Shown here: one piece after another, positions 25,212-55,887 of the stretch
How positions within the stretch are numbered: the first letter of the stretch is position 1
Layout of the letters: the number at the start of each line of letters is the position of its first letter
IMG/VR virus record: IMGVR_UViG_3300032360_000008
Location: 1-55,887 of that record
Direction: 5' to 3' (one strand)
Source of the DNA: a virus
Length of the DNA stretch: 55,887 nucleotides
Position numbers and translations under genes: made by a program
Notes under the pieces: model-generated
The model's input: only the letters and a program-made list of their open reading frames with translations
Database searches by the model: none
What the model was told of the DNA's origin: nothing

Positions 25212-25730
25212 ATGGCAATAGCAGCTTCTGATATTAAACTTAGAATTTCTGGTTCAAGTGCTTCAGCAACAGATCCAAACGGTTCTTATGGCGGTGCTAT
25301 GAGTACAGTTTCAGGTGGTATTATTACTACTAATGTTCTTAATAACGACATGGATGATATTACTTCAGCAGAAGCCTCATCTGGTATTACTATATATCAC
25401 AACTATTATTACAAAAATGAACACGCAACACTCACATATATTTCTCCTAAATTTTACATTGACACACAAACTAACTCTGGTGATACCAGCGTTGCTATGG
25501 CTCTAGTTACAGAAGCTAAAAACGTTGCAACTACCAGACTAACAAATGAAGAAACAGTACCCGCTACTGTAACATTTACAACCCCTGCAAATTATGCAGG
25601 TGGACTTGCAATCGGTAGTTTAGATGCAGGTGATTATAGAGGAATTTGGGTAAAATATATTGTCGGTTCAAGTGCTTCAGCAGTATTAGATGCTTACACA
25701 TTAGGAATACAAGGGGATAGTAACCCATAG
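25212..25730 (+). CDS. Beta-rich virion protein, probably tail-associated
   Basis: 172 aa, Ser/Thr/Ala/Gly-rich with repeated short strands. The C-terminal YRGIWVKYIVGSSASA pattern is typical of phage tail or decoration proteins. It opens the adhesion module and has its own TATA box 26 bp upstream. Confidence 0.55.
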   Translation: MAIAASDIKLRISGSSASATDPNGSYGGAMSTVSGGIITTNVLNNDMDDITSAEASSGITIYHNYYYKNEHATLTYISPKFYIDTQTNSGDTSVAMALVTEAKNVATTRLTNEETVPATVTFTTPANYAGGLAIGSLDAGDYRGIWVKYIVGSSASAVLDAYTLGIQGDSNP

Positions 25731-27464: not shown

Positions 27465-28525
27465 CCATATCTTATCACTCTGGTGAGAGGATTCAAGGAA
27501 CTAGTACAGATTTCGCACCTATTCCAGCTATTTCAGGTGGTTGGAAGGAAGTAGGAAGAACTACACTTGGAAGTGCAAGTAGTACAATAACAGTTTCAAT
27601 TTCATCTCCCAAACAATACTATATGGTGTTGTGTCCAATAAAAGCAGATGCATCAGGTGGAACAGATTCTAATTGGAGATTCAACGGAGATACTAGTACC
27701 AATTATGCTTGGAGTTTTTACTATCAAGGTCAGACAAATGATTACGGTACAGGAAGCCAAACCAAGATATACGATAATGGTTCAGGGGGTAGCAGGTTTC
27801 AATTTGCAGTAATGTATATTGCCAACACATCTGGAAAAAGAAAACTTACGATTACAAAAAATGCAATCAACTGGACATCTGGAACAACTGGAGAAGTAGG
27901 TAGAAAGAACATATACGGAAAATGGGATAACGCAAATGATGCAATAAATTCTATTCAACTTTATTTTTCAGACGGTGGAGCTCAATCAGGAGATGAGGTA
28001 GTCGTACTTGGCTGGGATGAAGACGATACTCATACAGATAACTTTTGGGAGGAATTAGCAAGTGTTACAGCAACAGGTTCAACTACTTCATTTAATTCTG
28101 GAACATTCACAGCAAAGAAATACTTATGGGTTCAAGGATATTTTACAAGCTCAGGTGCTTTTACTCCACAAATTAGAGTTGGTAATAATACCATAGATTC
28201 TAGTGGTAATTATGTAGGTAGGAGAAGTTATGATGGTGGTTCAGATGTTCTTACAACACAACAAACTGAAATTACTTTAGACGGAGTAGGACAATCTACA
28301 CCTGTTTTCTTTAATGGGTTTATTGTAAATAGAGCTTCAGATGAGAAACTAGCTATATTTAATTGTGTTAAACAAAATACAGCAGGAGCAGGTAATGCAC
28401 CACACAGAAGGGAAACTGTTTTTAAATGGGTAGACACAACTAATCAGATTAATATTATTGAATTTCTAGCATCAACAGGTAATATTGGTTCTACTGGAAC
28501 AATGAAAATATGGGGGCATGACTAA
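27461..28525 (+). CDS. Receptor-binding protein, duplicated domain (paralogue A)
   Basis: 354 aa with two tandem copies of a beta-rich domain of about 150-170 residues. Each contains strands like QYYMVLCP, an R-F-N-G-D/N-N-T segment, an IANTSGKRKL or VNRASDEKL strand, and a final W. Between the copies is WDEDDTHTDNFWEELAS, which recurs in the paralogue at 33552. The ends overlap neighbours by 4 and 1 nt. Probably a tail-tip adhesin. Confidence 0.65.
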   Translation: MTISYHSGERIQGTSTDFAPIPAISGGWKEVGRTTLGSASSTITVSISSPKQYYMVLCPIKADASGGTDSNWRFNGDTSTNYAWSFYYQGQTNDYGTGSQTKIYDNGSGGSRFQFAVMYIANTSGKRKLTITKNAINWTSGTTGEVGRKNIYGKWDNANDAINSIQLYFSDGGAQSGDEVVVLGWDEDDTHTDNFWEELASVTATGSTTSFNSGTFTAKKYLWVQGYFTSSGAFTPQIRVGNNTIDSSGNYVGRRSYDGGSDVLTTQQTEITLDGVGQSTPVFFNGFIVNRASDEKLAIFNCVKQNTAGAGNAPHRRETVFKWVDTTNQINIIEFLASTGNIGSTGTMKIWGHD

Positions 28526-30012
28526 TGGTCTGGGGAAAGGCAGGTAGTACAACCTTGACAGCAGGTGGAAATGCCATGACGGTTTCATCATTACCAAACA
28601 GCGTTTTTGGTATGGCACTTGGTAAACATACAGCAGGGGGAACTGATATCAAACTAAACGGAGATACTGATTCAAACTATGCAGTAAGACGTAATGTAAA
28701 TGGTTCAAGTTCGGAAAACTACAACACAAATGTCTCAGATGCATACATTACAGACTCAAGAGGTTATCCTCACTTTAATGTCACATATCTCTGTAATATT
28801 TCAGGTGAAGAAAAACTATGGATTAATCATAATGTACATGAAAGTTCAGGTGGAGCAAGTGTAGCAACAACAAGAGAGGAGGCTGTGGGAAAATGGACAG
28901 GAACAGGTGTAGTAACTTCATTTGAATATCATAATTGGGCTGGTAGCACTTATGCTTCTGGAGATAATGTTTCAGTATTAGGTGATGGTGTAACTCCAGC
29001 AGAAGCAATACCATTTGGTTCAGCAGTAAGTGACGTACCAGATTACACCAGAGCCGAGATAACAGATACTAGGAGGATGTATACTAAATACCCAGAAGGA
29101 TGGTTTGTACTTGGTACTGTATATGTTCCACCACCACCAAAAAGAGGTATATGGGGTGGAGGTTATACTTCAGCATGGGGTAGTTCAAACGCTATGTATT
29201 ATGTTACCATATCCACAACAGCAAACGCAACTGACTTTGGAGATTTAACCGTAGCAAGACCAAGTTGTGCAGGAGTTGGTTCTGATACAAGAGGGTGTTT
29301 CGCAGGTGGTGAGAGTTATTCAGATGTTATAGATTATATCACTATACAAACAACAGGTAACGCAACTGATTTCGGAAACTTGTCAGTTGGTAGACAGGAA
29401 CTAGCAGGAACTTCAGATTCAACCAGAGGGTTATTCATGGGTGGTAATGCTAGTGGAACAAGTAATGATAATGTTATAGACTATATTACAATGGCAACAA
29501 CTGGAAATGCTACAAACTTTGGTGATACAACAACAACACCAAGATATAATTCAGGAGCTTGTGCTAGTTCAACAAGAGCAATTCTTTTTGGAGGACAAGC
29601 TGCTAGCCCTGTTGATATTATTGACTATGTAACTATACAAACTACAGGAAATGCCACAGATTTCGGAAACTTGTCAGTTGGAAGGATGCAAGGAGGAGCA
29701 GTTTCAGATGCAACCAGAGGAGTGTATATGGGTGGATTTAATGCAGCAGTTGCTATGGTGAATACTATTGATTATGTAACTATCTCCACTACAGGTAACG
29801 CAACGGACTTTGGAGATTTATCATCAGCATCAGGAAGTATGTCTGCCACAGGTGATTCTACTAGAGGAGTATTTGGTTCTCATAGGGATAATGTTGGATT
29901 TACAGCAGCTATGGGTTATATCACTATCGCTACAACAGGTAACGCAACATCTTTTGGAGATGCATCTACTACTACTGCATATAATGGAGCATTAAGTGAT
30001 TATGTCAAATAA
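28525..30012 (+). CDS. Adhesin: receptor domain plus kelch-like repeats
   Basis: 495 aa. Residues 1-165 are a further copy of the domain found at 27461 and 33552 (MVWGKAGSTTL..., ending VLGDG). Residues 205-495 are about six kelch-like repeats of about 48 residues, each with a GG(Y/E/N) turn, an IDYITI strand and GNATDFG. Six such blades could close a beta-propeller. The same repeat type ends the 30057 protein. Function: surface recognition, inferred. Confidence 0.7.
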   Translation: MVWGKAGSTTLTAGGNAMTVSSLPNSVFGMALGKHTAGGTDIKLNGDTDSNYAVRRNVNGSSSENYNTNVSDAYITDSRGYPHFNVTYLCNISGEEKLWINHNVHESSGGASVATTREEAVGKWTGTGVVTSFEYHNWAGSTYASGDNVSVLGDGVTPAEAIPFGSAVSDVPDYTRAEITDTRRMYTKYPEGWFVLGTVYVPPPPKRGIWGGGYTSAWGSSNAMYYVTISTTANATDFGDLTVARPSCAGVGSDTRGCFAGGESYSDVIDYITIQTTGNATDFGNLSVGRQELAGTSDSTRGLFMGGNASGTSNDNVIDYITMATTGNATNFGDTTTTPRYNSGACASSTRAILFGGQAASPVDIIDYVTIQTTGNATDFGNLSVGRMQGGAVSDATRGVYMGGFNAAVAMVNTIDYVTISTTGNATDFGDLSSASGSMSATGDSTRGVFGSHRDNVGFTAAMGYITIATTGNATSFGDASTTTAYNGALSDYVK

Positions 30013-30056
30013 CATTATAACTTTATTAAATAATATGTGGGGAAATATATAGAGAT

Positions 30057-32516
30057 ATGACCATCAAATATTTAGATTCAAAGAGGATTAGTGGATTAAT
30101 TGGTACTGCAAGTTTACAAGAATCATTTGGCACAGGTAGCTCAGGTAGTGGCAATACTGAATTTAATACACCAAGAGGTGTTGCTGTTGACTCTAGTGGT
30201 AATGTACACGTTATAGATACATATAATCATAGAGTTCAAAAGTTTAACTCAGCAGGAACATATCAATCTACAATAGGAACAGGTAACTCAGGTACAGGTA
30301 ACACCGAACTTAATTATCCAAGTGGAATTGCTGTTGATTCAAGTGGTAACGTGTATGTTGCAGACACTAACAACCATAGAGTTCAAAAGTTTAACTCATC
30401 AGGAACATATCAATCAACTCTTGGTACAGGAAGTGCAGGAAGTGGCAATACTGAACTTAATAATCCAGAAGGGGTATCTGTTGATTCAAGTGGTAACATA
30501 TATGTTGCAGATTCAGAGAATGATAGAGTTCAAAAGTTTAACTCAGCAGGAACTTATCAATCTACATTCGGAACAGGAAGTGAAGGAACAGGTAATACAC
30601 AATTCAATTACCCAAGTGGAGTAGATACTGACTCTAGTGGTAATGTGTATGTTGCAGATAAAAATAATCACAGAGTTCAAAAGTTTAATTCTAGTGGAAC
30701 ACACTTACAAACATTTGGAACTAATGGAAGTGCAGGAAGTTCTAATTCTCAATTCAATTACCCATTTGGAGTTGTTGTTGATTCTAGTGGAGAGGTATAT
30801 GTTGCAGATAAAAATAACCACAGAGTACAAAGATTTGACTCTAGTGGAACATACTTACAAACATACGGAACAGGTAGCTCAGGCAGTTCTGACTCTCAAT
30901 TTTCTAGTCCACATGGGGTAGATGTTGACTCTAGTAGTAATGTATATGTTGCAGATACGAATAATCATAGAATACAAAAGTTTAATGCTTCTGATACTAA
31001 ACCAACTGACGTACAAGACAACTCCATCTTTGTAGAAACTGATACTGCTAAGAGATATTGGTTTAGTCCACAAACAGGAACAACAGAAGCAGTTTACACA
31101 TACACAACAACACCATCAACTTCAAACAAACTTACAGGAACACCAACAGGATATTCTGCTGATGCGTGTGGTGTAGAATTAGTATCAACAGCAAATAATG
31201 GTAAATATATCAAAGTAGGGAAATGGCAATTAAAAAGAGTTGGAACACTTGGTTCTAGTGCTTACATGAAAGTTGAGGATTCAGCAGGAGTTCTCAAGGG
31301 AACAAGTGCAGGAGTTACAGCTTCAACCATAGGAACATCATTTGAGTGGGTAACATTCACACTTCCTACTGCTGTTTCATTGGCAAATGGGGATAGAGTT
31401 TACATTGAATATCTTGGAACAGACACATCAGGAGATTATTTGGCTATTGGAGAGAAACACCCTAGTACAACACCAACTGGATTTGAATTTACAGTTTATA
31501 ATGTTCGAGATATTAATGGTAATAACCCATCAGGTGCTTGGACAGATGATGGATTGCCAACTGCACTTGTTCCTGTTGCTGTATTTGATTCAGTACCAGC
31601 TACTATTACATTACCTGCTACTTGGACTAGAGGATATTTTGATGCTAGAGGAGTATTTTGTGGTGGATATAATGGTTCTAATGTAGATGTAATTGATTAT
31701 ATTACAATATCAACTTTAGGTAATGCTACTGACTTTGGGGATATGTCAGTAAGTAGGAGATCATTAGGTTCAGTTGCAAATGATACTAGAGGTGTATTTT
31801 GTGGTGGATATGATACAGGTTATTCTAACGTTATGGATTATATCACAATAGCCACCACATCAAATTCTGTAGACTTTGGAAATAGTACAACATCATATCG
31901 TTCTGGTGTTGTTGGTGCAGGTAGTGATACTAGAGGTTTGTTTGCAGGTGGAGAAAGTCCTAAAGTAAATATAATAGATTATATTACTATCGCAACTTTG
32001 GGTAACGCTACAGACTTTGGTAACTTGACAGTTGCAAGAAAAGGTGGTGGAGCAACTAGCGATAAAACTAAAGCTGTATTTTTGGGTGGAGAAAGTGGAG
32101 AAACTACTATGGACTATGTAACTATTGCAACACTAGCTAATGCTGTAAGCTTTGGAACTATGTCAGCAGGTTCTTATGGAGGACATTGTGGAACTATATC
32201 AAATGGAACTAGAGGTGTATTTGCAATAGGTGGAAGTACTGCATCAGGTGGTTATAATAATACTATAATATATATTACTATTGCAACACCAGCTAATGCT
32301 ACCGACTTTGGAGATTTGACACAAGGAAGGGCAGATGGTGGTCAAGCTGGAGATTCTACTAGAGGTGTATTTGGAGGTGGTAAAACTTCTAGTGGTTCAT
32401 CTAATGTTGCTACAACAATAGATTATATCACAATAGCAACTTTAGGTAACGCAACTGACTTTGGAGATTTGACAGCAGCTAGAAATTCAACAACAGGATT
32501 GAGTGACGGTCAATGA
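30057..32516 (+). CDS. Adhesin: six NHL repeats plus six kelch-like repeats
   Basis: 819 aa. Residues 25-320 hold six NHL repeats of about 47 residues (VDSSGNVYVADTNNHRVQKF), enough for a six-bladed propeller. A linker domain (330-530) contains TYTTTPSTSNKLTGTPTGY and a carbohydrate-binding-like strand set. Residues 535-819 repeat GVFCGGY...VIDYITI...GNATDFG about six times, as in the 28525 protein. Two propellers in one tail protein is striking. Overlaps the next gene by 4 nt. Confidence 0.75.
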   Translation: MTIKYLDSKRISGLIGTASLQESFGTGSSGSGNTEFNTPRGVAVDSSGNVHVIDTYNHRVQKFNSAGTYQSTIGTGNSGTGNTELNYPSGIAVDSSGNVYVADTNNHRVQKFNSSGTYQSTLGTGSAGSGNTELNNPEGVSVDSSGNIYVADSENDRVQKFNSAGTYQSTFGTGSEGTGNTQFNYPSGVDTDSSGNVYVADKNNHRVQKFNSSGTHLQTFGTNGSAGSSNSQFNYPFGVVVDSSGEVYVADKNNHRVQRFDSSGTYLQTYGTGSSGSSDSQFSSPHGVDVDSSSNVYVADTNNHRIQKFNASDTKPTDVQDNSIFVETDTAKRYWFSPQTGTTEAVYTYTTTPSTSNKLTGTPTGYSADACGVELVSTANNGKYIKVGKWQLKRVGTLGSSAYMKVEDSAGVLKGTSAGVTASTIGTSFEWVTFTLPTAVSLANGDRVYIEYLGTDTSGDYLAIGEKHPSTTPTGFEFTVYNVRDINGNNPSGAWTDDGLPTALVPVAVFDSVPATITLPATWTRGYFDARGVFCGGYNGSNVDVIDYITISTLGNATDFGDMSVSRRSLGSVANDTRGVFCGGYDTGYSNVMDYITIATTSNSVDFGNSTTSYRSGVVGAGSDTRGLFAGGESPKVNIIDYITIATLGNATDFGNLTVARKGGGATSDKTKAVFLGGESGETTMDYVTIATLANAVSFGTMSAGSYGGHCGTISNGTRGVFAIGGSTASGGYNNTIIYITIATPANATDFGDLTQGRADGGQAGDSTRGVFGGGKTSSGSSNVATTIDYITIATLGNATDFGDLTAARNSTTGLSDGQ

Positions 32517-33558: not shown

Positions 33559-34670
33559 ATTGGCTAGCTGGTAATAGGGTAAGAGGAACAAGTACTGAAC
33601 GTACCACATCTACAGGATTCAATACTGGAGCTCCATATACAGGAACAGGTGGCTGGAAAGAATACAGTAGACATACATTAGGAAGCAACACAGCACCAAT
33701 TACAGTTTCCAGCATACCTGATAAGAGATATTATATGGTGTTAAAATCATGGTCAGGAAACACAGGGCTTTATGAGAGATTTAACAATGATAGTGGCAGT
33801 AATTATTCGGGAAGGCGTTCTCAAAATGGTGGAAGTTTATGGAATTCAACATCAGAAACAGGTATGCCTTGGGGTAATTCTGGATATGTATCTGGAGATA
33901 ATTTTTCAGTTGAATATATTGCAAATCTTGCAGGAGAGCCAAAACCTGTTATTCGTGATTGGGTTATACAAGAAGGTGGAACAGGTAATAATTCACCATC
34001 AAGAGTAAAGGTTGTAAACAAATATGATGATGGCAGTACAAATCCAGTAATAAATAGAATGGATATGACAGTTGGAAGTGGTTCATTAAATTCAGGTTCT
34101 GAGATGGTCGTGCTTTATTGGGATGAAGACGATACGCATACTGATAATTTCTGGGAGGAATTGGCAAGTGTAGAATTATCAAGTGCAAACGATTTAATTG
34201 ATTCAGGAACATTCACAGCAAAGAAATATTTGTGGATTCAGATTTATAATTCTGCAAAACCTAGTGGTGGAAATAGTTATGTTTACTATAACAATGTTAC
34301 AACAGGTCAAGAACACGCAGGTAGAAGCAATACCAATGGTAAAAATCCTGCAACAAATAGTGCAGGTTCTGACTATCAATTAACAGGTAGTAATGGTTCA
34401 ATCATTAACCATGATATATCTGGAAGTGGTTCAGTAACAGGATTATATACAAATATGTTTGTGATTAACACAACATCAAAGGAAAAATTCTCAATAGTAT
34501 ATTCTGCTTCGGGGTGGACAACTAGTCAATCTGTTGCACCTGCAAGATTTGAATGTGTCAATAAATGGACTAACACATCTGACCAAATAACTAGCGTTCA
34601 ATGTGGATCAGTAGGCACATCTAACTATATGGGAGCAGATTCATTCATCAAAGTGTGGGGTTCTGACTAA
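33552..34670 (+). CDS. Receptor-binding protein, duplicated domain (paralogue B)
   Basis: 372 aa, paralogue of the 27461 protein: same two-domain layout, and the joining segment WDEDDTHTDNFWEELAS and SGTFTAKKYLW are identical or nearly so, including at DNA level. The frame extends upstream to 33522, but ATG 33552 aligns with the start of paralogue A. Duplication followed by divergence of the loops is the likely history. Confidence 0.7.
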   Translation: MVDWLAGNRVRGTSTERTTSTGFNTGAPYTGTGGWKEYSRHTLGSNTAPITVSSIPDKRYYMVLKSWSGNTGLYERFNNDSGSNYSGRRSQNGGSLWNSTSETGMPWGNSGYVSGDNFSVEYIANLAGEPKPVIRDWVIQEGGTGNNSPSRVKVVNKYDDGSTNPVINRMDMTVGSGSLNSGSEMVVLYWDEDDTHTDNFWEELASVELSSANDLIDSGTFTAKKYLWIQIYNSAKPSGGNSYVYYNNVTTGQEHAGRSNTNGKNPATNSAGSDYQLTGSNGSIINHDISGSGSVTGLYTNMFVINTTSKEKFSIVYSASGWTTSQSVAPARFECVNKWTNTSDQITSVQCGSVGTSNYMGADSFIKVWGSD

Positions 34671-35254
34671 TGCCTTGGGGAAAATTAGGAAGTACAACAT
34701 TGGGAAGTGCTGGTGATGATTGTGATATTACATCATTTACTGCAAGTAAGTTTGATTTTTTTATGTTTCATAAGATATTGTCAGGTAGTAATGCCGAGTC
34801 AACTTGTACATTAAATGATAATGGTTATCCTGTATATTCTAGGGAAGGTTCAGATAACTTTGGTACTGACTTTACATCAAGTGGTTCAAATTGGAACTTG
34901 CAAAGATTGGACACAGGAGATGAATTTATGGTTGTATATTTGTGTTCACCTACAGGTGATACTAAACTAGGTATTCATGCAAACTGTTCAGTTAAACCAA
35001 TAACACACGCACCTGAAATAAAACAACAGGCTCTAAAATTTACCCCAAGTCCAGATGTAACTGTTACACGAATTGACTTCCATAATTCCAATGCTAGTGG
35101 AGATTATGATACAGGAACAAATGTATCAGCATTAGGTTCAGAAGGACAAACACCATCATCTGCAAAAATACAAGACGGACTAATCTTTGAGGAGACTGAC
35201 ACTAACAAGCATTATATTTATACTGCTTCAACTGACACATGGACAGAGTTGTGA
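34670..35254 (+). CDS. Receptor-binding protein, single-domain paralogue
   Basis: 194 aa: one copy of the domain seen at the start of the 28525 protein (MPWGKLGSTTLGS, VVYLCSPTGDTKL), followed by a tail-fibre type end IQDGLIFEETDTNKHYIY. Its stop is 6 bp before the LKH-repeat gene and its start overlaps paralogue B by 1 nt. Confidence 0.65.
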   Translation: MPWGKLGSTTLGSAGDDCDITSFTASKFDFFMFHKILSGSNAESTCTLNDNGYPVYSREGSDNFGTDFTSSGSNWNLQRLDTGDEFMVVYLCSPTGDTKLGIHANCSVKPITHAPEIKQQALKFTPSPDVTVTRIDFHNSNASGDYDTGTNVSALGSEGQTPSSAKIQDGLIFEETDTNKHYIYTASTDTWTEL

Positions 35255-35260
35255 CCTTAA

Positions 35261-37009
35261 ATGGTTCAAAATTATTTAACTATAGAAGATAATTCTACAC
35301 AATTAACAATAGAAGATAACACTACAGGTCTATATATCAATGATACAATAATTAAAGAGTTAATATTCAAGCACGGTGTTATTGGCTCTGTTATTAATCA
35401 AAATGTATTAAAACACAATATAAATTTGCTTGTTGCTAAAGCAATAGAATATCTTACAATAGAAGATAATTTAACCCAATTAACAATAGAGGACAATGCA
35501 ACTGGATTGACAGTAAGAAACAATGGGGATACGTTAAAACACAATATAAATTCAAGTGCAGAAAAATTAGATGTATTAAAACACAACTTGAGAAGTGCAA
35601 TTACTAATGAAAATATATTAAAACATAACTTAATTGAAAAGATAATCAACACGGTATTGGCAAAACATAATATTGATACAAATGTGGTAAAGCCAAATAT
35701 ATTAAAGCACAATATAAGAGCAGAAATAGTAAAGCCAAATATATTAAAACACAATATAAGAGCAGAAATAGTAAACCTAGATATATTGAAACATCAGGTT
35801 ATAGCAAAGGTAATTGTTTCTGATATATTAAAACATCAGGTCATAGAGGCTATCATAAAAGATATTGGTCTAAAGCATAACATTAGAAAGTTTATGAGAG
35901 TTAGTAAGACATTAAAACACTACAACTATGGTGTAGCAGTAAAGTTTAATATTTTGAAACACAATTTAGTTCAAAAGATTATTCCTATAACAAGTTTCAA
36001 GCACAATATACGAACCCTTGTTGCTAAAACTATTGAATATCTTACGATAGAAGACAACTCTACCAGATTGACAATAGAGGATAACACCACAGGAATAGAA
36101 ATAAGCAACAATGCAGACACATTAAAGCACAATATAAGAGGTGCAATAGTAAAACCAAATATATTAAAACACAACTTGAGAAGTGCAACTGTAAACAATA
36201 TTATATTAAAACACACTATAATAGAAAAGATAATCAACTCTGCCATATTAAAACACCAGATCATAGAGGGTATAATTAACTCCAATATATTGAAGCACGA
36301 TATACGAGCCAAGATCATAAACTCAATCATATTAAAACACAGCATGGGTGGAATGGTTATTGTCAGCAGTATATTAAAACATCAGGTTATAGAGGCAATT
36401 ACCAAATCCACAGTAGCCAAACACAACTTGAGAAAGTTTATCGCTGTGAACACAATATTCAAACATTGGTTGTACAACGGTGTAATCAAAGATGTAATTT
36501 TGAAACATAATCTTGGGGGTAAGGTTGTTGTAGATTATATATTGAAACACGACATAAGAGGAATACTCGTAAGTAACCATATATTAAGCCACAACATAAA
36601 CAAGTTTACTTCTAACTTTACAGTTGCTAAACACAACATCAACTTTGGTCTTACTAACAATATAATATTGAAACATAGTGTTATAGCACCATCAAGGGCT
36701 TTCCATATATTGAAGCACGATATACGAGGAATCCTTGTAAATGTAACATCACTTAAACACAATATAAGAGGCACACTTGTAAATACACTTGTACTCAAAC
36801 ATAACATAGTAGGTTCAATTATAAACAACGCTGTATTAAAACACGGTATTACAAGTGCAATATCTATTGCTAAAATACTCAAGCACAATGTAGGTGAAAA
36901 GTTTGCCATGTTGATTCAGAAACGAACTCTAAAACTAAACGATGCAACAAAGTCAATAAACCTTAATAGTGACGAGGGCGATTCAACAAGTGAGGGAAAT
37001 AATACATGA
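35261..37009 (+). CDS. LKH 14-residue repeat protein, 582 aa
   Basis: Residues 30-555 consist of 33 imperfect copies of a 14-residue unit, consensus ILKHNIRxxIVxxN; 32 copies carry KH and one has SH. Three related segments YLTIEDNSTQLTIEDNTTG (near residues 5, 64 and 268) interrupt the array and mark a larger internal duplication. There is no signal peptide, cysteine or obvious catalytic motif. The regular alternation of hydrophobic residues would suit a beta-solenoid, with the histidine on one face. The C-terminus is Asp/Ser/Glu-rich. It is between an adhesin and a BppU-like gene, so it is probably an elongated virion fibre. Not recognised as a known family. Confidence 0.7.
   Translation: MVQNYLTIEDNSTQLTIEDNTTGLYINDTIIKELIFKHGVIGSVINQNVLKHNINLLVAKAIEYLTIEDNLTQLTIEDNATGLTVRNNGDTLKHNINSSAEKLDVLKHNLRSAITNENILKHNLIEKIINTVLAKHNIDTNVVKPNILKHNIRAEIVKPNILKHNIRAEIVNLDILKHQVIAKVIVSDILKHQVIEAIIKDIGLKHNIRKFMRVSKTLKHYNYGVAVKFNILKHNLVQKIIPITSFKHNIRTLVAKTIEYLTIEDNSTRLTIEDNTTGIEISNNADTLKHNIRGAIVKPNILKHNLRSATVNNIILKHTIIEKIINSAILKHQIIEGIINSNILKHDIRAKIINSIILKHSMGGMVIVSSILKHQVIEAITKSTVAKHNLRKFIAVNTIFKHWLYNGVIKDVILKHNLGGKVVVDYILKHDIRGILVSNHILSHNINKFTSNFTVAKHNINFGLTNNIILKHSVIAPSRAFHILKHDIRGILVNVTSLKHNIRGTLVNTLVLKHNIVGSIINNAVLKHGITSAISIAKILKHNVGEKFAMLIQKRTLKLNDATKSINLNSDEGDSTSEGNNT
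35687..35770 (+). repeat. Near-perfect 42-bp tandem repeat inside the LKH gene
   Basis: Two adjacent 42-bp units (35687-35728 and 35729-35770) are almost identical and encode VKPNILKHNIRAEI twice. This shows that the array grows by 42-bp duplication in frame. Confidence 0.75.
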
Positions 37010-37365
37010 GTACAAGAAGACAAGATTTCGGGGTAACCTTTACGGTAAACGTAGGAACTACAAAGTCACTACAACTCACTATATTAGATCCTGATACAGG
37101 TCTTGCAAAGGATCTTTCTAGTACAACATTATATGCTTCTTCAACGGTAAAAATATACAAGCCTGATGGAACACAGATAGGTGCTACAATAAATGCAACC
37201 TTTAGTGACAGGGCAAACGGTATCATGTTGTTTACAATTTCAGGAAGTAGTCAAGGAACATTAGCAAATGCAGGTAACTGGATTGGGGAAATTGAATTTG
37301 TTAATAACGCAGGAGCAACAATAGACCAACAACAATTTGGTATAGACATCAAACAAAGTTTCTAA
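37006..37365 (+). CDS. BppU-like N-terminal domain protein, 119 aa
   Basis: The sequence pattern (GTTKSLQLTILDPDTGLAKDLS, VKIYKPDGTQIG, GIMLFTISGSSQGTLANAGN) matches the beta-sandwich found at the N-terminus of phage baseplate upper proteins. Usually that domain anchors a receptor-binding part; here it stands alone. Overlaps the LKH gene by 4 nt. Confidence 0.65.
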   Translation: MSTRRQDFGVTFTVNVGTTKSLQLTILDPDTGLAKDLSSTTLYASSTVKIYKPDGTQIGATINATFSDRANGIMLFTISGSSQGTLANAGNWIGEIEFVNNAGATIDQQQFGIDIKQSF

Positions 37366-37397: not shown

Positions 37398-37706
37398 ATG
37401 TCAGATATTTCTACACGGGAACACAAGCACATACAAATGACAAAGGCAACATTCCATTCTGAAACCTTAGCACCAATTAAAACAAATGGAATAGCAGGTA
37501 AGCCAAGATTCTCTGTAGAGCCTTTGATATATATCGCTGGTGTCGGTTGGGAGATTGTTGATCCTATGGCAAGTGGCAACGAGTTTATGATAGCATTTTA
37601 TAACTATGTAAGAATTAAGGAACTAATGGGGTATGAGCATACAGGTCATACTTCTGCTGAGATAAAAACAACATTGGAAAATATGTGGGGAGAAAAGATT
37701 GAATGA
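37398..37706 (+). CDS. Hypothetical protein, 102 aa
   Basis: Soluble protein without recognised motifs; a short hydrophobic stretch (IYIAGVGWEIV) is too short for a membrane segment. A CTTATATTA box about 26 bp upstream starts a new operon that continues through the methyltransferases to the primase-helicase. Confidence 0.6.
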   Translation: MSDISTREHKHIQMTKATFHSETLAPIKTNGIAGKPRFSVEPLIYIAGVGWEIVDPMASGNEFMIAFYNYVRIKELMGYEHTGHTSAEIKTTLENMWGEKIE

Positions 37707-38385
37707 AATAATATTAGGAGATTGTCTTGAAAAGATCAAAGATATACCTGATAACTCTATAGATTTAATCATTACAAGTCCTCCTTACGATAACATTGAG
37801 GGTGCAGGGTATGCCATGAAAGGTAAAGATATTTTATTTCTTAAATTATATTCTGATTTTTTAGACAGATTCTTTAATGAAATTTATAGAGTGTTAAAAC
37901 CAACAGGACAATTTTATTTTAATATAAAATCTGGTACTTCTAAAAAAACTTTAATTACACCTCATTGGATTGAAAGACTTGAGTCATTTCAGAAATTCAA
38001 ATTTAAATCATATATAATTTGGAAATATAGTGGTTCGTTTGATTCTACAAAAGCAAGATTTCATTTAGATTATGAAATCATATATCATTTATCAAAGACA
38101 GATGATATTACAATTTATTATGAAGATGGAGAACATGATCCTTTAACTTCTGTATGGAATATTCCACATAATATATCAAAAGATCAAAGAGTACACCCTA
38201 CACAAATGCCTGAATCACTTGCAGAAAAAATGATCAAAAGAGGATCAAAAGAGGGAGATGTAGTATTAGATCCGTTTGCTGGTAGTGGAACTTCATTAGT
38301 TGTAGCAAAAAGACTAGGAAGAAAATATATAGGAATTGAAATTAACCCAACACATTATGAAGGAATTAAGGAACGATTGAATTGA
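37699..38385 (+). CDS. DNA methyltransferase (N4-cytosine/N6-adenine, beta class)
   Basis: 228 aa. Catalytic motif TSPPYDN (about 27-33) comes first and the SAM-binding DPFAGSGT (about 188-195) last, the beta-class order. It shares the opening GDCLEKIK...IDLIITSPPY with the methyltransferase at 39873, so the two are paralogues. The start is TTG, overlapping the previous gene by 8 bp. No restriction endonuclease is fused or adjacent; protection from host restriction or marking of viral DNA is likely. Confidence 0.88.
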   Translation: MNEIILGDCLEKIKDIPDNSIDLIITSPPYDNIEGAGYAMKGKDILFLKLYSDFLDRFFNEIYRVLKPTGQFYFNIKSGTSKKTLITPHWIERLESFQKFKFKSYIIWKYSGSFDSTKARFHLDYEIIYHLSKTDDITIYYEDGEHDPLTSVWNIPHNISKDQRVHPTQMPESLAEKMIKRGSKEGDVVLDPFAGSGTSLVVAKRLGRKYIGIEINPTHYEGIKERLN

Positions 38386-38798
38386 GTAATTTTATAACTA
38401 AGGACAGCGGGGAAAGAAGACAATTCAATACGGGAGCTCAAAGAGATGTTGTTACTGACAAGGGCAGATATGATCTTATATCGCCCATAATGATTGACAG
38501 ATTGGCAAAGTTACTGCAACGTGGTGCAGAAAAATATAACGACAGGAATTGGGAAAAAGGTATGCCATTATCTGTATATATGGATTCGGGGATGAGACAT
38601 TTGTACAAGTTCCTAGAAGGACACAGAGATGAGGATCACTTAATTGCAGCTATTTGGAACTTACAGGCTTTACTTCACATAGAAGAAATGGTAAATAGAG
38701 GGGTATTACCAAAAGACTTATTAGATTTACCAAATTATATCAAACCATGTTCACATTCAAAAACACAAAATATGAAAGAAAAGGATGGATTTTGGTAA
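38382..38798 (+). CDS. MazG-like dNTP pyrophosphohydrolase (DUF5664)
   Basis: 138 aa. Residues 27-110 match the dATP/dGTP diphosphohydrolase-like family: YDLISPIMIDRLAKLLQRGA, EKYNDRNWEKG, MDSGMRHLYKFLEGHRDED, HLIAAIWNLQALL, with acidic metal ligands in the helices. These enzymes hydrolyse nucleoside triphosphates and alter the nucleotide pool during infection. TTG start overlapping the methyltransferase stop by 4 nt. Confidence 0.8.
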   Translation: MSNFITKDSGERRQFNTGAQRDVVTDKGRYDLISPIMIDRLAKLLQRGAEKYNDRNWEKGMPLSVYMDSGMRHLYKFLEGHRDEDHLIAAIWNLQALLHIEEMVNRGVLPKDLLDLPNYIKPCSHSKTQNMKEKDGFW

Positions 38799-38813
38799 AA
38801 GTAGGTGATGATA

Positions 38814-38939
38814 TTGGGTGTTAAATGTAAATATTGTGGATGGAAACCAGAAGAATCTAGTTTCTACTCAACAAGAGAAGATTTTAAAAAAGTTAGCTAC
38901 CATATAAACAAATGTAAAAAAGAATATGAATCAGACTAA
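38814..38939 (+). CDS. Zinc-finger miniprotein, 41 aa
   Basis: CKYC at residues 4-7 and HINKC at about 29-33, a CCHC-type finger. The preferred start is TTG 38814, preceded by AGGTGAT, a good ribosome site; GTG or ATG a few codons upstream are alternatives. Overlaps the next gene by 14 bp. Confidence 0.5.
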   Translation: MGVKCKYCGWKPEESSFYSTREDFKKVSYHINKCKKEYESD

Positions 38940-39201
38940 GAAACATTCTTTGTTAGAATCCATACAGACAGCTGCAATCGCAGCTCCTACTGCTATATTA
39001 ATTCACAAGGCTACACTTATGATAGCAGGTAATAATGCACTAAACAACAACCAAGACCTGTTTGTAACATTGTCATGGGTGTTGTTCTTTCTGCATGGAA
39101 TAATGTGGAAATATATAATTAGAAGAATACATGATCACTATGGATCAAGATTAGATCCTAGAAACATTTATAATACCATAAGGGGTTTAAAATTGAAATG
39201 A
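38926..39201 (+). CDS. Two-TM membrane protein, 91 aa
   Basis: Hydrophobic segments at residues 15-33 and 46-66, followed by a basic C-terminal tail (RRIHDHYGSR). Size and topology resemble small phage membrane proteins of unknown role. Overlaps the nuclease gene by 4 nt. Confidence 0.6.
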   Translation: MNQTKKHSLLESIQTAAIAAPTAILIHKATLMIAGNNALNNNQDLFVTLSWVLFFLHGIMWKYIIRRIHDHYGSRLDPRNIYNTIRGLKLK

Positions 39202-39623
39202 GTAAGGCAAAAAATAATCAGGCAAAGTCATTCTTTTCATACAAAAATGATGATGTAGAACTTGTAGATATTGGTCAGTTCCTTCGTGAAACCACAAAAT
39301 ACAGAGTGGAACGTGAGTGGTATGTATTGTTTAATAAAATAACGGGGGAATATGTTGGGTATCAGGAAACATTTAACGGTAATATAAAATACAAACCTAG
39401 AAATCCTGATCTCATACTAATAGATAAGAAAACAAAAAAGATTATACTAATAGTTGAAATTGATGGTGGGGTGCATGACAAAAAGTTTGCTGATACAGAA
39501 CAGCGTAATGAAGAATATTTCTTGGCAGGTTTGCCATTACTAGCAATTAACAAGTTGGAAATAGAAACTACTATATTTGACTTGGTAGATAAGAAGGTAA
39601 GGGAATATTTAGATGACAATTAA
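39198..39623 (+). CDS. PD-(D/E)XK-type nuclease (DUF559/VSR-like)
   Basis: 141 aa. The core NPDLILIDKKTKKIILIVEIDGGVHD (D near 74, E-x-D near 92-94), followed by QRNEEYFLAGLPLLAI, matches the VSR-like DUF559 endonuclease core. It lies between two DNA methyltransferase genes, so it might cut DNA lacking the viral modification or process branched DNA. Confidence 0.7.
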   Translation: MSKAKNNQAKSFFSYKNDDVELVDIGQFLRETTKYRVEREWYVLFNKITGEYVGYQETFNGNIKYKPRNPDLILIDKKTKKIILIVEIDGGVHDKKFADTEQRNEEYFLAGLPLLAINKLEIETTIFDLVDKKVREYLDDN

Positions 39624-39882
39624 TCTGTATGTAAACAATGGATATAAGGAATATTTAGATCAACTTAAAGTTATTTCAGAAGCAAATAACAAACCATTAT
39701 CAACAGAAATTTGCAAGGCGGTCAAACAATATATACAGAACCTAAATGATGAAAAGGATCTTGTGGCAGAAGATGAGGAATGGAATGAGTTTATTAAAAG
39801 TGCAACTAAAGAACAACTCTATGAAATGAGTAGGGTTATATGTGGGTTGAATGATAGGATAATTCGTAAAGTATGTCAATAA
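39613..39882 (+). CDS. Hypothetical protein, 89 aa, RHH-like N-terminus
   Basis: The first 40 residues (MTINLYVNNGYKEYLDQL, then NKPLSTEICKAVKQYI) fit a strand plus two helices as in ribbon-helix-helix proteins; the rest is acidic and helical. Overlaps both neighbours by about 10 nt. Possible regulator of the methyltransferase-helicase operon. Confidence 0.5.
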   Translation: MTINLYVNNGYKEYLDQLKVISEANNKPLSTEICKAVKQYIQNLNDEKDLVAEDEEWNEFIKSATKEQLYEMSRVICGLNDRIIRKVCQ

Positions 39883-40646
39883 TTAATGGGGATTGTTTAG
39901 AGGAAATGAAAAAACTTTCAGATGAAAATATAGATATTATTATAACAAGTCCACCTTATGAAAAATTAAGAGCATATAACGGATATTCGTTTGACTTTGA
40001 GGGAGTAGCAAAAGAGATTTTTAGAATTATGAAAAAAGGTGGTGTGGTTATATGGGTTGTGTCAGATAGTGTGATAAAAGGAAAAATAAACGGAACAACT
40101 GAATCAGGTATTTCATTCCAACAGGCTTTATATTTTAAAGAATTAGGTTTTAACATACATGACACAATGATATATTCTAAGAAAGGATCATCATTACCTG
40201 ATCCAACTAGATATTTTCAAAAGTTTGAATATATGTTTGTTTTAAGTAAAGGAAAACCTAAGACAATAAATCTAATAAAAGATAGAAAAAATAAAAGTGT
40301 AGGAAAACCTAAGACAACTCATAGTAGAGATGAAAATACTAATAAAATAAATTACTATAATACATATATTACAAAAGAATATGGATTAAGATATAACATT
40401 TGGAATATTAATGAGGGATATATGTTGTCAACTAAAGATAAAATAGCATTTGAACACCCTGCAATATTTCCTGAATCATTGGTAAGAGATCATTTATTAT
40501 CATGGTCTAATGAGGGGGATATGGTATTAGATCCGTTTGCTGGAAGTGGAACTACATTGAAGATAGCAAAAGAATTAAATAGAGAATATATAGGTATAGA
40601 GATAAGTTCTCAATATTGTGATATAATTAAGGAGAGATTAAAATGA
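39873..40646 (+). CDS. DNA methyltransferase (beta class), paralogue of 37699
   Basis: 257 aa with TSPPYEK near residues 28-34 and DPFAGSGTT near 218-226. Compared with the 37699 enzyme it has a longer middle (target recognition) part, so the two should recognise different sequences. Overlaps the primase-helicase gene by 4 nt. Confidence 0.88.
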   Translation: MSIINGDCLEEMKKLSDENIDIIITSPPYEKLRAYNGYSFDFEGVAKEIFRIMKKGGVVIWVVSDSVIKGKINGTTESGISFQQALYFKELGFNIHDTMIYSKKGSSLPDPTRYFQKFEYMFVLSKGKPKTINLIKDRKNKSVGKPKTTHSRDENTNKINYYNTYITKEYGLRYNIWNINEGYMLSTKDKIAFEHPAIFPESLVRDHLLSWSNEGDMVLDPFAGSGTTLKIAKELNREYIGIEISSQYCDIIKERLK

Positions 40647-46473: not shown

Positions 46474-46577
46474 TAATATTCAACTTCCTTGAATATTTTT
46501 CCACAAGTCAAACAATAAGCATGACTTTCTTTTATCCTTATTATATGAGAGGGATATTTATTTTCACATAATCTCAT
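46473..46577 (-). CDS. Zinc-finger miniprotein, 34 aa
   Basis: One C (residue 4), H residues (11 and 19), and CLTC at 22-25 form a possible CHHCC site. It bridges the adenine methyltransferase (4-nt ATGA overlap) and PolB (1-nt TAATG overlap), so it is translated with both. May be an accessory to the polymerase; unproven. Confidence 0.55.
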   Translation of the reverse strand: MRLCENKYPSHIIRIKESHAYCLTCGKIFKEVEY

Positions 46578-47155
46578 AGTTCATTTTCCTCAAATAAGTT
46601 AGAACAAAGTAACGTTCTAGCGTGTTTTCCAAATATAACCTTCTTATCACTAGAAACAACTTTACAATTCCATTTGGATTTAGTCAAACATTTTTTAATC
46701 TCATGTTCGTCTTTTGCACTACATATAATCCAATCCCCTTTCAAATCATCTACAACATCTAATAATTCTGAATAGTATTCCATTGGTTTTCTGTCACAAA
46801 AAGCGTTATGGTGTGAGTCATAACAGGTAAAACGCCACGGTGGATCTATTAAGAAAAATGTATCTTCACTATCCCATTTTTTAATACATTCCATATAATC
46901 TTCTTGTGTTACTATTATAGGAAATTCAGAAGTTTCAGAATATTCTGCATATTCATTTTTTAAATAATTAACTGCATATTCACTCATATCATTAAGTATT
47001 ATTTTGTCATGTCTAAGTTCAACAGTTCTTCCTAATCCTGCAAATGGTTCGACATATATTTTTGAAGTTGGTATATAATCATTAATTTTATCTGCTGTAT
47101 GTTTAAGTCCTGAATACCCACCAAACATTAACTTATTTCCCCATACAGAAGTCAT
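46574..47155 (-). CDS. Adenine-specific DNA methyltransferase (D12/Dam-like)
   Basis: 193 aa with motif I VEPFAGLGRT (near 33-42) and the catalytic DPPW (near 98-101) inside FFLIDPPWRF. An N-terminal GGYSGLKH matches the start of D12-class enzymes. Shorter than Dam (about 270 aa), so the target-recognition part is reduced. Overlaps both neighbours by 4 nt. Confidence 0.8.
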   Translation of the reverse strand: MTSVWGNKLMFGGYSGLKHTADKINDYIPTSKIYVEPFAGLGRTVELRHDKIILNDMSEYAVNYLKNEYAEYSETSEFPIIVTQEDYMECIKKWDSEDTFFLIDPPWRFTCYDSHHNAFCDRKPMEYYSELLDVVDDLKGDWIICSAKDEHEIKKCLTKSKWNCKVVSSDKKVIFGKHARTLLCSNLFEENEL

Positions 47156-47721
47156 AGTTCGTCACCCCATGAATCCCAACCCTCTGCAAACTCTCTTGCA
47201 AATAATTCAATTCTTGGAATATCTCCACATAGTTCTACTATTCTATCTCTTACTACATCAGGTTTTTTACTGTGTCTTTCAGGAACACTTTGTATAAGTT
47301 CAGGTTCATATATTGTTTCAACCACTTGTCTTACACCTGCTGACATTCGTTTTGGTTTACCCTTTGTTCCCAATATACAGATCTCACTATTTGCTCTAGT
47401 CCACCTGCCCATTCCCATAAATGGATTAAGATTGTTATAATATTTAACCCAATTAAATGCACAAGTCTTTGGTGTAAACCCCCATGCTTTCATTACTTCC
47501 ATACAAGTTCCGTCAATAAGTTTTGGAAAAGTTACCCACATAAACATTATACTATTCTCACTTGCAATACTTTCCACTTTAAGATCCTTTAACTCCTGTA
47601 ATGACATTACATTATATTTACATTCTGCTCCACGCTTACCTGCCAATGCCTTATCATTATATGTCCAAGCAGGATCACAATATATTATATCATATTTTTT
47701 AGTTGGAAAGTCCACGTTCAT
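47152..47721 (-). CDS. MT-A70 family adenine methyltransferase
   Basis: 189 aa. The catalytic motif is DPAW (near 16-19 in YDIIYCDPAWTYND) instead of the usual DPPW, which is tolerated in some members. The end IELFAREFAEGWDSWGDE is the characteristic C-terminal signature of phage MT-A70 DNA methyltransferases. A TATA-like CTATATAG lies 18 bp before the ATG at 47721 and 24 bp before a GTG at 47715; the latter would fit the general spacing better. First gene of the PolB operon. Confidence 0.82.
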   Translation of the reverse strand: MNVDFPTKKYDIIYCDPAWTYNDKALAGKRGAECKYNVMSLQELKDLKVESIASENSIMFMWVTFPKLIDGTCMEVMKAWGFTPKTCAFNWVKYYNNLNPFMGMGRWTRANSEICILGTKGKPKRMSAGVRQVVETIYEPELIQSVPERHSKKPDVVRDRIVELCGDIPRIELFAREFAEGWDSWGDEL

Positions 47722-54868: not shown

Positions 54869-54976
54869 ACATTATACCATACTAAAAAGATATATAAATA
54901 TATCTCGGATTTTGGATCTTTTTTAGGCGTAAATCTTTAAAAATTTCTTTATTCGAGTTTAGAAACATTTTTTATT

Positions 54977-55040
54977 AGATATACTTTAGATATACTTTAG
55001 ATATACTTTAGATATACTTTAGATATACTTTAGATATATT
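54977..55040. repeat. Five tandem 11-bp repeats AGATATACTTT
   Basis: Five exact copies (54977-55031) plus a partial sixth. The period of 11 bp is close to one helical turn. It lies between the end of the 55039 gene and the promoter of the 54868 operon. Confidence 0.75.
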
Positions 55041-55610: not shown

Positions 55611-55887
55611 TTAAATCATTCCTAAAACTTTATTATAATTTTCTTCATTTTTATTTTCAATATATGAATCAAAAGCAAATGCAACTTTAATATTTTTCTT
55701 AACTGCTTTTGCTATTTTTGTTTTGAAAAAATTGTTAAACTCATATAATTTTTCATTTTCATTTTCTGATTCTGATTCTGATTCTGATTCTGATTCTGAT
55801 TCTGATTCTGATTCTGATTCTGATTCTGATTCTGATTCTGATTCTGATTCTGATTCTGATTCTGATTCTGATTCTGATTCTGATTCT
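55611..55887 (-). CDS. Ser-Glu repeat protein, incomplete at its start
   Basis: The gene continues past the window end. The visible part starts inside at least 20 Ser-Glu dipeptides, followed by ENENEKLYEF and a helical C-terminal domain (FKTKIAKAVKKNIKVAFAF). The acidic dipeptide tract could be a flexible spacer or phosphorylated linker. Confidence 0.6.
   Translation of the reverse strand, partial: ESESESESESESESESESESESESESESESESESESESESENENEKLYEFNNFFKTKIAKAVKKNIKVAFAFDSYIENKNEENYNKVLGMI
55764..55887. repeat. Hexanucleotide microsatellite TTCTGA
   Basis: About 20.7 uninterrupted copies of a 6-bp unit run to the end of the window. In frame on the minus strand it encodes Ser-Glu. A perfect repeat at a sequence end suggests assembly stopped here. 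Confidence 0.85.

Follow-up and report, generated by a model that had tools for sequence, protein, structure and literature searches.

The triple beta-spiral shafts of the adenovirus fibre and of reovirus sigma1 are homotrimers made of short repeats of about 15 residues with alternating hydrophobic positions, and shaft length follows the number of repeats. In the consensus of this fold, the repeat (positions a to o) carries hydrophobic residues at c, e, g, k and m, and proline or glycine at the turn position j (PMC3150272). Conserved histidines in elongated phage appendages are found in the iron-binding spikes and fibres of T4 (gp37), P2 (gpV) and the R-pyocin; in trimeric phage fibres, iron is bound through HxH motifs (PMC6116203). 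In haloarchaeal tailed viruses, adhesins encoded in hypervariable regions set host range (PMC8651126).

The window, that is, the whole stretch of 55,887 nucleotides that was analysed, is an IMG/VR virus record, and near fragments of it are common in IMG/VR. Its genes include a portal, a capsid-maturation protease and a terminase according to PHROG, and a Prim-Pol/MCM helicase and a family B polymerase according to Pfam. The nearest named relatives of the capsid protein belong to haloarchaeal tailed viruses (22-24% identity) and those of the helicase to archaeal tailed viruses; the window thus very probably comes from an archaeal tailed virus. The profile of the capsid protein had no match in any GTDB contig. 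A gene for a 582-aa protein made of 14-residue units with a conserved Lys-His pair (LKH protein) lies within a run of late structural genes, together with genes for an NHL propeller protein and for a protein whose matches are PHROGs of phage decoration and tail-fibre proteins. The features of this region are the following:

25212..25730, + strand: 172-aa protein of the same structural region, matched at 45-58% by proteins five to six genes from the repeat gene in G027, G028 and G029
34670..35254, + strand: upstream neighbour, 194 aa, synteny kept in G005 (30% identity)
35261..37009, + strand: LKH protein gene, 582 aa, open frame in table 11, orthologue in G005 at L110:8046-9620
35261..35362, + strand: N-terminal segment with the first LTIEDN pair, residues 1-34; the G005 orthologue begins with the similar LLTLEDGTSLLTLEDG
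35363..35446, + strand: units 1-2, residues 35-62, from [KS]H spacing
35447..35530, + strand: second LTIEDN insert, 28 residues (63-90), 14-residue register kept
35531..36034, + strand: units 3-14, residues 91-258, from [KS]H spacing
35687..35770, + strand: adjacent pair of 42-bp copies, 41/42 identical, recent tandem duplication
36035..36118, + strand: third LTIEDN insert, 28 residues (259-286)
36119..36916, + strand: units 15-33, residues 287-552, from [KS]H spacing
36917..37006, + strand: C-terminal tail, residues 553-582, containing KRTLKLNDATKSINL
37006..37365, + strand: downstream neighbour, small protein of 119 aa, slot marker (38-60% in G005, G030, G004 and G008)
37398..37706, + strand: next neighbour, 102 aa, conserved slot marker (55-80%)

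The original prediction of 33 units of 14 residues agrees exactly with our count: the 33 [KS]H sites of the LKH protein are spaced by 14 residues, save for two gaps of 42 which hold LTIEDN inserts. Histidine is present in 33 of 33 units and lysine in 32; a KH pair in 32 of 33 units had been predicted. When the protein is compared with itself at a lag of 14 residues, 178 identities are observed, while the maximum in 2,000 shuffled sequences was 72. The units were said to cover nearly the entire protein; they account for 462 of 582 residues (79%), and the remainder consists of the LTIEDN inserts and the two ends. By eye, the KRTLKLNDATKSINL tail is similar to the ends of the corresponding proteins of G005 (IRIKDTSKSIKF), G004 (ITLKDKNTDITM) and G030 (ISLKDSSKNINM).

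The adjacent copies at 35687-35728 and 35729-35770 differ by one base, and Tandem Repeats Finder (TRF) reports for the gene a period of 42 with 2.5 copies and 92% matches. The best long-range repeat of the protein has a lag of 196 residues, which is 14 × 14 (41/60 identical amino acids, 74% at the DNA level), and its similarity spans roughly residues 57-168 with respect to 253-364. The near-perfect 42-bp copies and the growth by tandem duplication that had been proposed are therefore confirmed, the first by the 41/42 identity and the second also by the duplication of a 196-residue block. The LTIEDN segments, three in the original prediction and said there to mark a larger duplication, are three pairs (residues 6/15, 65/74 and 261/270), and the larger duplication is confirmed for the second and third, which are related by the 196-residue lag. 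In the G005 orthologue, a 168-bp block is duplicated without any mismatch (168/168). The first and second bases of the Lys and His codons are almost invariant between units, and the third base differs in 42-44% of unit pairs; at the variable positions of the units, codons differ at all three bases. Since variation in the Lys and His codons is nearly confined to the third base, the KH pair is under purifying selection at the protein level, beyond what recent copying would preserve. The LKH gene is thus a repeat gene that grows in tandem and in which KH is selected.

Relatives of the LKH protein were found in six other IMG/VR virus records (G005, G027, G028, G029, G006 and G004). IMG/VR was scanned for three [LFIVM]KH units 42 bp apart and the matches were filtered by their translations, which left only G005 and three FKH-type proteins (G027, G028 and G029). 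A scan for RH units left two RHD-type proteins, one of 1162 aa and 69 units in G006 and one of 8 units in G004. The window's own record is apparently omitted from scans of this kind. The protein of G005 (a record of 63 kb) is a syntenic orthologue with 525 aa and 33 units, flanked by orthologues of 34670-35254 and of 37006-37365/37398-37706. Homologues with in-frame changes in repeat number, on whose existence the original prediction depended, were therefore found, and the unit numbers among the relatives are 8, 12, 33 and 69. The longest member, G006 (L098:8954-12442, 69 WN[IL]RHD units), also has a 779-aa open frame on the reverse strand across the repeat.

The 180 units of the seven proteins share the profile [LIF]2-[KR]3-H4-x-[ILV]6-xxx-[IV]10, with period 14 and a single register; in the relatives the units were gathered by their histidine, which is consequently present in 100% of them by construction. 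Unbroken His runs reach 56 units and misses within runs are rare, which indicates that the histidine is kept in the relatives as well. Because BLAST E-values between periodic proteins are inflated, comparisons by hhalign of three-unit blocks were set against 25 period-preserving permutations, each of which applied the same reordering of positions to all units. The alignments of LKH with FKH (98.6%, E 1e-15), LKH with RHD (75%, E 2.5e-5) and FKH with RHD (55%, E 1e-4) were all in register and above all 25 controls; in a BLOSUM permutation test of the family, the RHD type was only borderline (2-3 of 200). On these profile comparisons, we regard the LKH, FKH and RHD proteins as one small, undescribed family of 14-residue repeats.

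Profile searches of Pfam, PHROGs and PDB, as well as phmmer against PDB, gave no real match to the LKH unit, only spurious PHROG hits below threshold, in agreement with the earlier statement that no family with this unit is known. The weak PHROG and Pfam hits of the relatives look repeat-driven and differ between proteins; those in Pfam are mostly below the cut-off, with no stretch passing alone. No description of such a phage repeat was found among 5.4 million open-access papers, and a peptide scan with the 582-aa protein alone gave no matches. In a pattern scan of cellular genome contigs, the matches listed were tandem repeats of unrelated kinds, at odds with the LKH/FKH/RHD profile. A relation of the RHD protein to tape-measure proteins, raised by PHROG and tblastn hits, was discarded, as the W repeats in the tape-measure segment of Paenibacillus are spaced differently and lack KH or RH.

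With respect to the triple beta-spiral, hydrophobic positions c, g and k are matched by family positions 2 (97% ILVFM), 6 (99%) and 10 (83%). However, the period is exactly 14 in all runs instead of 15; the hydrophobic position e corresponds to position 4, which is histidine in all units, and m to position 12, where K, R or N take its place (K/R in 66%); and position 9, equivalent to the turn j, is glycine or proline in only 5% of units. No sequence match was found to any PDB chain.

Repeats of the same period occur on known virion proteins. Searching with the RHD protein by tblastn led to two of them: the 14-residue repeat extension of gp15 of Vibrio phage KVP40, and the C-terminal part of a tail-tip protein from an Aeromonas phage. 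The C-terminal extension of KVP40 gp15 (L424:823-2175), which is absent from T4 gp15, consists of about 13 degenerate W-N-x-R repeats of 14 residues, and gp15 relatives in other Vibrio phages diverge strongly in this extension. In Aeromonas phages vB_C4 and BUCT552 (L002, L003), the C-terminal 300 aa or so of the tail-tip protein are near-perfect 14-residue YNLRSSVQAELLAP repeats, whose copy number differs between the two phages. The two groups of repeats align with each other (hhalign 86%, E 5e-6), while LKH units reach a probability of only 0.1-0.3% against them; RHD units reach 1.5% against the Aeromonas repeats, in the same register and above 25/25 controls. The repeats of Schizotequatrovirus gp15 and of the Casjensviridae tail tips thus resemble the LKH protein in period, variable copy number and presence on virion proteins, and their W/Y-N-x-R motif faintly recalls WN[IL]RHD of G006. 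They differ in having no conserved KH and in being extensions of known structural proteins, whereas the LKH protein is free-standing. They serve here as an analogy.

AlphaFold2, run with three sequences, predicted the 206-aa protein of G027 as all beta (pLDDT 81.6, pTM 0.81). In this model, one strand runs along xPhiPhiKHxPhi, and the second strands are short. The model of the 582-aa window protein (pLDDT 49) was too poor to interpret. These runs were made on monomers, so that an intertwined oligomer is beyond their reach, and the method may over-favour regular beta structure in repeats. Of the regular stacked solenoid originally envisaged, what stands is a confident prediction of regular beta structure in the short relative only (pLDDT 82); for the 582-aa protein the prediction gives no such picture (pLDDT 49). 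Foldseek gave no match of the predicted structure in PDB and BFVD at E ≤ 0.001. A coiled coil, suggested by 14 being two heptads, was rejected on the hydrophobic positions (2, 6 and 10), the alternation at 2/4/6 and the beta model.

The place of the gene is subject to exchange. The terminases of G004, G030 and G008 are 56-83% identical to that of the window, and in these three viruses other repeat proteins, with about 20 aa per unit (INETIEI.., SVDESLQISEN..), occupy the stretch that precedes the 37006 and 37398 homologues. They are located directly before the 37006 homologue in G004 and G008, and with two to several genes in between in G030. By eye, an HxHD-like motif stands at the start of several slot proteins and of two FKH proteins, and a ..LKDxxKxI.. 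motif at the end of several slot proteins. Whole repeats are exchanged at this site, and since related viruses hold quite different repeats there while sharing end motifs, it looks like a swappable fibre or adhesin slot. This recalls the haloarchaeal Hafunaviridae, archaeal tailed viruses with hypervariable tail adhesins, in which a gene for a putative adhesin, located among the structural genes, is likewise exchangeable; those adhesins, however, are glycine-rich and T-even-like, and no sequence relation to the KH repeat was seen. At 28525-32516 of the window, two proteins have a repeated, propeller-like DYITIATxGNATDFGDL motif in common, and one of them is joined to an NHL propeller.

The tailed viruses G027, G028 and G029 gave no match to the terminase of the window and still share with it the repeat protein and the 172-aa protein encoded at 25212. 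The three have a common six-gene run ending in the repeat gene, placed beside capsid and connector genes in G027 and G028 and beside baseplate and fibre genes in G029, which resembles an exchangeable adhesion or fibre cassette.

The repeat proteins have a pI of 9.9-11.4, as compared to 4.4-7.7 for 24 other proteins of the window, and the K/R beside the histidine is as conserved as the histidine itself; together, these two features speak more for an electrostatic role than for the binding of metal, phosphate or glycans by a His ladder, which is speculative. The alternative proteins of the slot with repeats of about 20 aa are acidic or neutral (pI 4.4 and 6.4), so the slot as such does not call for a basic protein; acidic repeats in the same place would fit different receptors. 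From the gene context, we infer that the LKH protein is incorporated in the virion, and the reading we favour, as somewhat more probable than the others together, is a shaft or adhesin of beta repeats, variable in length, that an archaeal tailed virus carries on its virion. The adjustable-length virion fibre of the original prediction is upheld as far as the unit number varies among relatives and the surroundings fit a fibre or adhesin; its presence on the particle is argued from context. In such a shaft, each unit, x-[LIF]-[KR]-H-x-[ILV]-x-x-x-[IV]-x4, would form a main beta-strand over [LF]KHxI and a second short strand around [IV], and units would stack end to end. Their number changes by in-frame tandem duplication, and in the slot bounded by conserved genes whole repeat proteins are swapped for unrelated ones. 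The row of K/R-H pairs makes the protein strongly basic, and the likeliest contact of the shaft would be an acidic cell envelope, such as the Nitrosopumilaceae S-layer, or another acidic virion protein. A bolder version, which we hold quite unlikely, is that the unit is an unseen fold, an oligomeric beta shaft with a buried His row and an exposed Lys/Arg row, and that, as the archaeal branch, it belongs with the repeats of KVP40-type gp15 and of Aeromonas tail tips to a larger class of 14-residue repeats on virions, used by tailed viruses as exchangeable, length-adjustable rods.

Because the repeat gene of G027 and G028 lies between the capsid gene and the connector and tail genes, a head or neck decoration is, as far as position goes, as possible as a tail fibre. 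The protein would then form whiskers or capsid fibres, like the extended KVP40 gp15 (a T4-type tail completion protein located at the top of the tail, with its 14-residue repeat extension), and serve weak, non-specific attachment, which its strong positive charge would suit, or particle stabilisation, instead of being a receptor-binding tail fibre. In the window and in G005, however, the gene is grouped with those for propeller and fibre-like proteins and is distant from that of the capsid; the cassette of G029 adjoins baseplate and fibre genes, so that we judge this reading rather unlikely, with perhaps a minor share of the probability.

A metal-binding shaft, in which inward-facing histidines, perhaps stacked around a three-fold axis, bind metal ions in a row and thereby stiffen the fibre, much as in HxH iron sites, is not favoured and seems to us improbable. 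Histidine is the sole residue found in all aligned units, in a set anchored on it in which misses within runs are rare, and the alternation of positions 2, 4 and 6 (L/F, H, I) would put it, if a strand is formed, on the hydrophobic side. Nevertheless, known sites take two His per chain, whereas there is one per 14 residues here; HxH is absent from the window protein, from G005 and from the RHD proteins of G006 and G004, and was otherwise seen only in some of the other slot proteins, close to the N-terminus. Moreover, LKH units offer no fixed site with acidic residues or Cys as co-ligands, and the neighbouring K/R would repel cations. An intracellular or DNA-facing protein, whose basic repeat would bind packaged or host nucleic acid or anchor replication complexes, agrees with the high pI and the one K/R-H pair per unit, and is very improbable given the predicted beta strands, the hydrophobic alternation, the position among structural genes and the exchange with acidic repeats at the same site.

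As to what a basic shaft might contact, G029 (IMGVR 3300028610_002655) encodes at L233:1115-6007 a full-length homologue (1630 aa, E 0 to 8c8k) of the S-layer protein of Nitrosopumilus maritimus, which ties at least this virus to Nitrosopumilus-like hosts. Viral structural genes are found elsewhere on the contig, on both sides of this gene, which may be a virus-encoded S-layer, a captured gene or an assembly chimera. Through the genes shared with G029, the host of the window virus is probably Nitrosopumilaceae-like. The N. maritimus S-layer has been described as highly negatively charged (PMC11153153). If the hosts are marine ammonia-oxidising archaea, which wear a strongly acidic S-layer and whose viruses have few known attachment proteins, basic, length-variable shafts that move between virus groups would be concrete candidates for how such viruses bind. 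As the LKH unit has no solved relative, solving it could bring to light a new kind of fibrous beta motif, and the perfection of its repeats would make it attractive as a designable rod.

Three further observations concern the rest of the window. Four predicted DNA methyltransferase-like genes, recognised by sequence motifs only, surround the replication module (37699-40646 and 46574-47721). An 11-bp direct repeat, TTAGATATACT, is present in six perfect copies at 54975-55038 and is iteron-like. Finally, the record ends inside a perfect TTCTGA hexamer array of 20.7 copies (55764-55887), the minus strand of which reads (ES)n, and this end is probably an assembly stop.
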